Both the position numbers and the translations under genes were made by a program. This document shows positions 1 through 26,210 of a stretch of 64,000 nt of DNA, one piece after another. Source of the stretch: Myxacorys almedinensis A (lineage in GTDB: Bacteria; Cyanobacteriota; Cyanobacteriia; Leptolyngbyales; Leptolyngbyaceae); NCBI RefSeq assembly GCF_010091945.1, contig NZ_WVIE01000004.1:1-64000 (forward strand), in the 5' to 3' direction. Below the pieces are notes generated by a model. It was not told where the DNA came from, did no database searches, and saw nothing but the letters and a program-made list of their open reading frames with translations. Each line of letters begins with the position of its first letter. Positions within the stretch are counted from its first letter, which is position 1.

Positions 1-146
1 TCTAAGTGGGAAGCCCCCCTCAAGATGAGTACTCCCATGGAGTTAATCCAGTAAGGTCACGGGCAGAACACCCGTTGATAGGTCTTAGATGGAAGCTCAG
101 TAATGAGTGCAGTCGAGAGATACTAATAGACCGAGGGCTTGACCTC
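1..146 (+). rRNA. rrl: 23S ribosomal RNA, 3' end (partial)
   Basis: The first ~146 bases match the conserved 3' end of bacterial 23S rRNA: the CCCGTTGATAGG stretch, the GAGATACTAATAGACCGAGG stretch and the terminal GCTTGACCTC typical of cyanobacteria. The 5' part lies outside the window. The exact 3' end is uncertain by a few bases. The 5S gene follows about 100 bases downstream, so this is the tail of an rRNA operon read on the plus strand. Confidence 0.95.
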
Positions 147-245
147 ATCGTGGCGATGATGCAGGGGTGATATTGACATTGCTTTGCTTGCTCTATGCAG
201 CCTTCAAGGTTCTAAGTCGGGTGACTTGGGGCGACTAGAGGGATT

Positions 246-363
246 TCCTGGTGGTTTTGGCGGTTTGGCTCCACCCTCATCCATCCCGAACTGAGGTGTG
301 AAACAAATCTGCGGCGACGATAGTGGGAGGGTTGCTTCCTGTCAAAATAGCGCGCTGCCAGGT
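246..363 (+). rRNA. rrf: 5S ribosomal RNA
   Basis: A 118-base stretch begins TCCTGGTG and ends CTGCCAGGT; the ends pair as helix I of 5S rRNA. The internal CCATCCCGAACTGAG block and the GTGAAAC loop are standard 5S landmarks. Size, position after 23S and the hairpin just downstream all agree. Confidence 0.95.
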
Positions 364-377
364 CGATTATGTTACCC

Positions 378-410
378 ATGGGTCTGATTGGTCTCACCAG
401 TCAGACCCAT
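378..410 (+). terminator. Hairpin ending the rRNA operon
   Basis: ATGGGTCTGA (378-387) is perfectly complementary to TCAGACCCAT (401-410). Four more inner pairs (TTGG/CCAG, with one G-U) bring the stem to 14 bp around a 5-base loop. It lies 15 bases after the 5S end. There is no clear U-tract, so it could be a processing or termination structure. Confidence 0.75.
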
Positions 411-978
411 CTGTATAGGGGCAGGCTCTAGTTGCTCGCATGTACTCCATCCCTACTCCTTCAGCGGCAGGGCTGATTTTGCGTGGGTGAAGCATCAGTC
501 CCATGCGAGTTTGGCTTTACTATGGGTGTCGCACCGACTGTTCAGTCAACTTCAGGTATGTAGAATTCGTTTGTGAGCAACCGTCAATTGACGTTTTGCG
601 ACGACTGATGCATGGGTCAAATTACAGCGTTTACATCTTGTACTCAAATCTGGCAAAGTTGCCTTGGTAAAGTACTGTTAGGCACAACGCGCAACTTTAA
701 TTAAATAGTCAAGCCATTAAGTTTGAGGGCAAGTCGCAGCCGAACGGAAAACTGCTTCAACGCAAAATAGCAGTATCAACTTAATGCTTTGGAACGTTAG
801 TTTGCATAACATTACAGTCTGTAGAAGAGACGTTAGACCGCTACTCGATAAGATGGAGCAGATGAGCACGATCGCACGTTCTAGGATAGGAACTGAGTGT
901 CTAAACTGTGATTTAGGCGTACAGTAAACGTTTATCCCCATCTTTCCTTGAAGCACATCGCGGAGATTTGAAGCTCGA
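411..978. other. Intergenic spacer after rRNA operon
   Basis: This 568-base spacer lies between the rRNA terminator and the SNF2 helicase gene. Short open frames here show no recognisable protein features. No tRNA, repeat or clear regulatory site was seen. Confidence 0.6.
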
Positions 979-25386: not shown

Positions 25387-25484
25387 AGTCAAAAATTCAA
25401 AACGGTTTGGGTTAGCCTTCATTATCGCAGGCAAAAGTCACCAAATTTAACGCCCAGAGATCTCGACAAATTCCCTAAATAAGG

Positions 25485-25558
25485 ATACAAATGTCCTTAA
25501 GAACAGATCAACTAATTTAGCCCATCGCCGCGCCTTTTTGGTACAATACAAATGTTCT
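25485..25558. promoter_or_regulatory. Two LexA-box-like repeats upstream of lexA
   Basis: ATACAAATGTCCT (25485-25497) and ATACAAATGTTCT (25546-25558) differ at one base and are 61 bp apart. With the preceding base, the second copy matches the Anabaena-type LexA consensus RGTACNNNDGTWCB at all but one position; the first has two mismatches. A TACAAT -10-like hexamer (25542-25547) abuts the second copy. The placement suits autoregulation of lexA and possibly control of the divergent methyltransferase. Confidence 0.5.
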
Positions 25559-25589: not shown

Positions 25590-26210
25590 ATGGAATCCCT
25601 CACTGACGCCCAGCAACAGCTATATGACTGGCTAGTTGACTACATTCGCGACCATCAGCACGCTCCCTCCATCCGGCAAATGATGACCGCGATGAACCTC
25701 AAATCTCCGGCTCCGGTGCAGAGTCGGTTGGAGCATCTCCGCAACAAGGGCTACATTGAGTGGACGGACGGGCAAGCACGCACCATTCGGATTCTTAACC
25801 CCATGCCGAAAGGGATTCCCATCCAAGGCGCGATCGCGGCAACCAGCTTGGTCGAAACCTTCTCAGATAGCGAAGTTGAGTATTTAGATTTGTCAAATCT
25901 TCTGCTCAAGCCTCGGCATTTTGCTCTCAAGGTGCGGGGGCACAGCATGATCGAGGCACTCATTGACGACGGCGACATCGTGATTCTAGAGCCTGCTAGC
26001 GATCCGAAGACACTTAAAAATGGTGCGATCGTGGCTGCCCATCACCAAGGCAAAACCACGCTAAAATACCTTGAGCGCAAAGGAAGTAAGGTATTTTTGA
26101 AGCCTGGAAACCCAAATCGCGAGCTTTATCCGATCACAGAAGTTTCAGCCTCAGAAGTAGACATTCAGGGGGTGTTGATCGGCGTTTGGCGGGGATATGG
26201 CAAACTGTAA
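25590..26210 (+). CDS. lexA: LexA-like repressor with altered cleavage site
   Basis: This 206-residue protein has an N-terminal winged helix (residues 1-70, with APSIRQMMTAM) and a C-terminal S24 peptidase domain. The catalytic Ser119 (VRGHSM) and Lys159 (TTLKYLER) align with the E. coli positions. The cleavage site normally Ala84-Gly85 reads Ala84-Thr85 (GAIAATSL). Self-cleavage may therefore be slow or absent. In other cyanobacteria LexA homologues regulate genes outside the SOS response. The ATG at 25590 gives the standard start. Confidence 0.92.
   Translation: MESLTDAQQQLYDWLVDYIRDHQHAPSIRQMMTAMNLKSPAPVQSRLEHLRNKGYIEWTDGQARTIRILNPMPKGIPIQGAIAATSLVETFSDSEVEYLDLSNLLLKPRHFALKVRGHSMIEALIDDGDIVILEPASDPKTLKNGAIVAAHHQGKTTLKYLERKGSKVFLKPGNPNRELYPITEVSASEVDIQGVLIGVWRGYGKL

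Follow-up and report, generated by a model that had tools for sequence, protein, structure and literature searches.

The window analysed here, a stretch of 64,000 nucleotides from the filamentous cyanobacterium Myxacorys almedinensis A, encodes a LexA repressor that retains the Ser-Lys catalytic dyad and carries Ala84-Thr85 at the scissile site. We consider it an even call that this protein exemplifies a stable natural class of LexA with an Ala-Thr bond, whose protease and loop are both under strong selection and which is either a slowed or differently triggered self-cutter with co-adapted Thr85 and Lys155, or a repressor that works as a regulated switch by latching an uncleavable loop in its Ser-Lys site. 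It is common to infer a functional SOS switch from an intact Ser-Lys dyad or from the Ala-Gly pair; if such a class exists, possession of the dyad would be separated from being a RecA-triggered SOS switch. The P1' residue has changed while the surrounding loop and the dyad stay fixed across many species, and these proteins offer a natural experiment both on the part that the scissile residue plays in setting the switching threshold and on the departure of some cyanobacterial LexA proteins from SOS control.

The gene, lexA, is an ATG-initiated open reading frame on the forward strand (25590..26210) that encodes 206 amino acids, in a genome of 4.96 Mb in 85 contigs. Its product scores 181.7 bits against the lexA equivalog profile TIGR00498 (cut-off 110.95, residues 1–201), and both LexA domains, the winged-helix DNA-binding domain PF01726 (residues 1–65) and the S24 peptidase domain PF00717 (residues 80–197), exceed their cut-offs. 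Structure searches with an AlphaFold model of the protein (mean pLDDT 79.9, pTM 0.58) returned LexA structures as the best matches (1jhe: Z 16.3, rmsd 2.5, 120 residues aligned); the cleavage-loop region is weakly modelled, with block means of 64 for residues 81–90 and 57 for residues 91–100, and of 57–66 for the loop blocks overall. The relatives are cyanobacterial, the nearest named one being the LexA of Myxacorys californica (92%), which also has Thr at P1'. The product is thus a cyanobacterial LexA orthologue, and it is a member of the LexA family by profile score, by its two domains and by an operator-like site at its own promoter. We nevertheless class it as a variant, since the Ala-Gly feature of canonical self-cleaving SOS LexA is absent.

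Alignment with Escherichia coli LexA pairs Ser119 (25944..25946, within RGHSM) and Lys159 (26064..26066, within KTTLK) with Ser119 and Lys156, and Ala84-Thr85 (25839..25844, Thr encoded by ACC) with Ala84-Gly85, all on the forward strand. The canonical dyad is therefore present and the Ala-Gly (or Cys-Gly) pair is replaced by Ala-Thr, as a preliminary description of this DNA had read directly from the translation, with residue numbers that prove correct. Its authors had named an alignment that places an Ala-Gly elsewhere as a refutation; an alternative Ala-Gly in the loop is rejected, as the alignments made contain none. A loss of the catalytic Ser of the Synechocystis type was likewise not found in the window LexA, which keeps Ser119. 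Among family orthologues Ser is kept in 40/40 and Lys in all 38 that reach the relevant column, and both residues occur in 81/81 rows comprising 80 named loci and the window. The residue just before Ser119 is His118 in the window LexA and Asp in 61 of the same 81 rows.

Threonine at P1' is common within the family of the host and was found nowhere else in the class sample by the search used. The family sample comprised the 42 available genomes of the order (probably Leptolyngbyales, to judge from the names of the relatives), which all belong to a single family; 41 of them gave a LexA match; 40 orthologues were taken, G008 having no match and G003 being left out with only paralogues (47% and 40%). 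Of these 40, 22 have Thr and 18 have Gly at P1', two of the latter (G011 and G014) being broken or cut short. When residues 84 and 85 are aligned with those of related proteins, as the preliminary description had proposed, the nearest relative (92%) and 20 further family genomes show Thr in the same column. The named set, which consists of the best 80 of 392 relatives plus the window and shares several genomes with the family set, contains 12 Thr and 69 Gly among its 81 members. When 388 genomes of the class were searched with a loop pattern, 38 matched; 22 of these are Thr-lexA, all in the window's family. No Thr-LexA was found outside it by this Thr-specific pattern, which is confined to loops reading G..[IV]AAT..(hydrophobic)(V/I/M)(E/D). 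For the 16 remaining matches (L373–L388, from G036 and from 15 genomes outside the family) a LexA match beyond the loop motif was absent or weak, and the weak pair L380 and L382 proved on reading to be unlike LexA. A second search that allowed any P1' codon was limited to LVE-like loops and missed many LexA proteins. In the accessible portions of the open-licence literature searched, we found no LexA described as having Thr at P1'; the authors of one study state that the Ala-Gly site across cyanobacteria is under examination (PMC7567884), so a survey of the scissile site that we have not seen may exist.

A tree of 49 LexA rows (38 from the family and 11 outgroups), built without the columns for residues 85 and 118, resolves Thr85 into two changes: one for a 20-genome clade (support 97/91) and one for the pair G025/G026, which reflects either a second gain or a reversal to Gly in between. 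Both Thr groups fall among LexA proteins with His, Gln or Leu rather than Asp at residue 118, and the change at that position therefore seems older than Thr85. Within the main Thr clade (20 genomes, tree length 2.83) the cleavage loop, residues 80–89 with the sequence GAIAATSLVE (25827..25856, forward strand), is the slowest ten-residue stretch of the C-terminal part. It has accumulated 0.1 changes per column against 1.21 for residues 1–66 and 1.68 for residues 93–206, the lowest value of 130 ten-residue windows with no other as low. Among 15 family rows with Gly, the loop shows 0.5 changes per column and seven of 130 windows, the loop included, are as low; the Thr loop is thus under no less constraint than the Gly loop. 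Codon 85 of the Thr clade is ACC, ACG or ACA, with at least eight silent third-base changes and no replacement. Ser119 and Lys159 are unchanged throughout the clade, as are 104 of the 206 columns, so the invariance of the dyad says little by itself. The fixation of Thr85 in 20 genomes, the slow loop and the record of at least eight silent and no replacement changes at codon 85 together argue for stable selection and not for visible decay towards the Synechocystis condition, and on these grounds the intermediate state envisaged in the preliminary description is not supported.

Only two positions occur in 20/20 members of the Thr clade and in 0/27 Gly rows, namely Thr85 and Lys155 (26052..26054, forward strand), the latter aligned with E. 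coli Glu152. The named set shows the same association, with Lys155 in 12/12 Thr rows and 0/69 Gly rows. The second Thr group, G025/G026, has Gln155, from which it follows that Lys155 is not needed for Thr85; moreover, the pairing represents one event on the tree and could be the product of shared ancestry alone. In E. coli the substitution E152A, jointly with L89P and Q92W, promotes RecA-independent cleavage (PMC3834820).

The likely consequences of Thr85 can be judged from the geometry of the cleavage loop. The loop of E. coli LexA lies either at the active site or about 20 Å away from it, and RecA favours the cleavable state (PMC3834820). Residues 83–86 form a turn with a phi angle of +79 degrees at the third residue, a position occupied by Gly in about 68% of that turn class (PMC10020695). 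The underlying turn table derives from 1JHF, according to its PDB title a G85D mutant, so a non-Gly residue can occupy the turn in the crystal. A beta-branched Thr should nonetheless fit badly in a positive-phi turn and slower cutting would be expected, which makes the poor substrate bond proposed earlier plausible as an inference. Even modest rate shifts alter SOS output, as illustrated by the E. coli LexA variants G80A, slowed about 5-fold, and E86P, accelerated about 10-fold (PMC4980697). Titles in the PDB include two P1' mutants, LexA G85D and P. aeruginosa LexA G91D. In both of these proteins cleavage is blocked and they are used as non-cleavable variants. Gly is reportedly preferred at P1' in a mutagenesis study of LexA. 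These precedents count against residual cleavage at Ala84-Thr85.

Comparison with characterised systems places the window LexA apart from each of them. Like LexA of Anabaena sp. PCC 7120, it has the Ser/Lys dyad and operators of a related type, but the Anabaena protein has Ala84-Gly85; self-cleavage of the Anabaena repressor is reported to depend on pH and not on RecA in vitro, and to be undetected at physiological pH or in vivo (PMC7567884, PMC13416735). Nostocales rows (L162, L170, L182) have Asp before the catalytic Ser where the window LexA has His. LexA of Nostoc PCC 7120 binds before lexA and recA (PMC3091678). Synechocystis sp. PCC 6803 LexA is also cyanobacterial and also lacks the Ala-Gly pair, but it has Gly-Gly at the scissile site and Asp for the catalytic Ser (PMC3091678), whereas the window LexA keeps dyad and loop; the Synechocystis protein has non-SOS roles (PMC3091678, PMC7567884) and its control by modification has been proposed (PMC7567884). 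E. coli LexA shares the two-domain fold, the dyad and the position of the loop with the window protein and differs by Gly85 and Glu152 in place of Thr85 and Lys155; its operator, CTG(TA)5CAG (PMC3091678), differs from the type seen here. The E. coli lexA gene has two operators (PMC9210283), and two operator-like sites precede lexA in the window as well.

The first of these sites, AATACAAATGTTCT (25545..25558, forward strand), lies 45 bp before the start codon and was detected by pattern and matrix scans; the second, GATACAAATGTCCT (25484..25497, forward strand), lies 106 bp before it and was found by the matrix scan. The matrix was derived from 82 sites upstream of lexA at the 80 named loci, and the upstream score of at least 11.1 at 40/40 family lexA loci is partly circular because the matrix was trained on the lexA sites of relatives. 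An independent scan picks the same lexA sites with a consensus known from Nostocales work. Two sites of score 15 or more precede lexA in 13/13 genomes of a Thr subclade, window included, that spans the genera g1, g12, g15 and g6. A SAM-dependent methyltransferase gene (PF08241; 24457..25386, reverse strand), identified by domain match and neighbourhood comparison, diverges from lexA and adjoins it in 11 of the 12 two-site genomes with a long enough locus (window included), and the methyltransferase may therefore share the lexA operator region. The exceptions are G017, which lacks it, and G009, whose locus is too short to score. A scan for sigma-70 promoters before lexA found none. A proposed tie between Thr85 and a GATAC operator half is incomplete, since G025, G026, G031 and G032 have GGTAC and GATAC also precedes three Gly lexA genes (L176, L180, L189).

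In the window genome the best site upstream of recA scores −4.1 and no site upstream of uvrA scores 7 or more, values that apply to operators of the matrix type, as a divergent operator would escape the matrix. The preliminary description had pointed out that some cyanobacterial LexA proteins regulate non-SOS genes; the lack of operator-like sites at recA and uvrA agrees with that part of its reading. Across 41 family genomes no operator-like site of score 8 or more was found in the 350 bp before recA in 35, against a background in which shuffles of 12 upstream regions reach score 8 in 4.7%. The six genomes with such sites are the Thr genomes G001, G005, G006, G007 and G017 (weak) together with G008, in which lexA was not found. 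By P1' class this amounts to 5/21 Thr and 0/18 Gly genomes, leaving 16/21 Thr genomes without a site, and the idea that Thr85 is linked to a loss of recA control is thereby rejected. The recA sites of G001, G005, G006 and G007 are paired and lie 30–32 bp apart, which suggests that Thr LexA may act on an SOS gene. These pairs belong to genera g2 and g5 (L220, L229, L231, L232, L237), and no other scanned family genome has a pair of score 8 or more. Outgroups reach this score at 8/24 recA or recA-like loci in 20 genomes. No operator-like site was found before uvrA in 13/14 family genomes, the exception being G002 with a weak site (10.0), and G004 has no uvrA match. The Nostocales outgroups G408 and G402, in contrast to the window genome, have strong uvrA sites (19.0 and 19.2); a third outgroup, G399, has none. 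With 16/21 Thr genomes lacking a recA site and 13/14 family genomes lacking a uvrA site, cleavage may have few genes to switch.

On the scale of whole genomes, the exact pattern RRTACNNNTGTTCT, which would miss looser operators, occurs at nine sites in the window genome against five for the reversed control. The corresponding numbers are 10/1 (G018), 7/4 (G029), 6/3 (G027) and 4/4 (G006) in other Thr genomes; 8/8 (G033, Gly), 17/4 (G015, Gly) and 12/3 (G025, Thr of the second group) in comparison genomes; and 16/11 in G408 and 5/5 in G410. As G018 and G025 exceed the reversed control, further targets may exist. The only gene with an upstream site in all five scanned main-clade Thr genomes is lexA; a site also precedes the second-LexA gene in two genomes (G000 and G018) and a 471-aa gene in the same two, there inside the preceding reading frame. 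The regulon of the window genome is thus likely to be small. In the Gly85 genome G015 (L305/L300) an operator-like site, AGTACATCTGTTCT, lies 19 bp before an integrase gene and a further one 27 bp before an SbcC-like gene; by eye we presume these to be a relative of integron integrases and an SbcC-like gene, respectively, and LexA control of recombination genes in this genome is possible.

Taken together, these observations lead us to regard the window LexA, with about even confidence, as a retuned self-cleaving autorepressor maintained by selection, probably slower or differently triggered. It would repress its own gene, probably from the two operators, while both the Ser119-Lys159 protease and the loop that serves as its substrate have been preserved, with Thr fixed at P1'. 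In all likelihood the loop continues to dock in the active site, where Ser119 would attack Ala84; Thr85 should disfavour the positive-phi turn at the bond, so that cutting would be slower or would need another trigger. This effect may be partly compensated by Lys155, which occupies the E. coli Glu152 position near the catalytic Lys. Such a LexA would have a reduced regulon and either a high threshold or a different trigger. The main rival, tentative and given less credence, holds that cleavage has been lost altogether: the loop would sit in the cleft as an uncleavable pseudo-substrate, the dyad would be kept to hold it, and relief would come from modification, a ligand or turnover, as proposed for Synechocystis LexA. 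The strain that a P1' Thr should place on the turn (PMC10020695) would suit this mechanism, as would the missing operator-like sites at the expected SOS targets (recA and uvrA here, uvrA in 13/14 family genomes), the status of lexA as the sole shared gene with a site in the five Thr genomes scanned for the exact pattern, and the proposed modification of the Synechocystis repressor (PMC7567884). Synechocystis, however, replaced both the Ser and the Ala-Gly pair (PMC3091678), whereas dyad and loop are unchanged here, and a docked loop has no obvious need for Ser119 and Lys159 as such. We favour a self-cutter that has a high threshold, or that responds to a different trigger, over a latched loop in view of the turn strain, the effect of modest rate changes and the precedent of Anabaena, whose Ala-Gly LexA is reported to stay uncut at physiological pH (PMC7567884).

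That Gly was lost by chance and its replacement is without effect seems unlikely. The two changes on the tree, and paralogues with His or Ser, do indicate that Gly is not strictly obligatory at the site, but drift sits poorly with a codon that has no replacements against at least eight silent changes and is surrounded by the strongest constraint in the C-terminal part. It is highly improbable that Thr85 itself is a chemical player whose hydroxyl attacks the preceding carbonyl in an N-to-O shift. Other self-cutting proteins do use Ser, Thr or Cys at P1' for this chemistry; the retention of the dyad and the paralogues with His at the same site, which are incapable of it, both speak against such a role.

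The window genome encodes a second LexA (G000:C38; L002, ORF 68-577, reverse strand) of 169 aa with an Ala-Gly pair, whose C-terminus, close to a contig end, lacks about 35 residues and whose start is preceded by an operator-like site, AGTACAATTGTTCT, at 30 bp. Rescue by a second Ala-Gly LexA is rejected as a general explanation: no separate second LexA was found at E 1e-10 or better in the Thr genomes G006, G007, G009, G027, G029, G031 and G032. In G009 an additional row is merely the other piece of a frame-broken lexA. A paralogue with an Ala-His scissile pair (AAHSLVE) occurs in ten family genomes, counted as loop-pattern matches inside paralogue matches (G015:C1:2448078, G017:C1:4212662, G019:C2:241795, G020:C26:35438, G033:C41:44834, G034:C11:166234, G035:C39:122941, G036:C64:11718, G037:C80:161100 and G038:C79:194704), as well as at L050 (G003) and at L110 from another family. 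The dyad is present in those that were read (L047, L048, L050, L066, L071 and L110), and a further paralogue, L046, has Ala-Ser at the scissile site. On contig C15 of G001, about 5 kb separates a second recA (64%) and a second lexA (80460-81293 and 86624-87202), perhaps a mobile pair. Finally, the loop codons of the window lexA (25827-25856) contain the octamer GCGATCGC, known as HIP1 and common in cyanobacterial genomes; it is frequent in the DNA matched by the loop-pattern searches, and the codon choice of the loop may therefore be partly set by this repeat.
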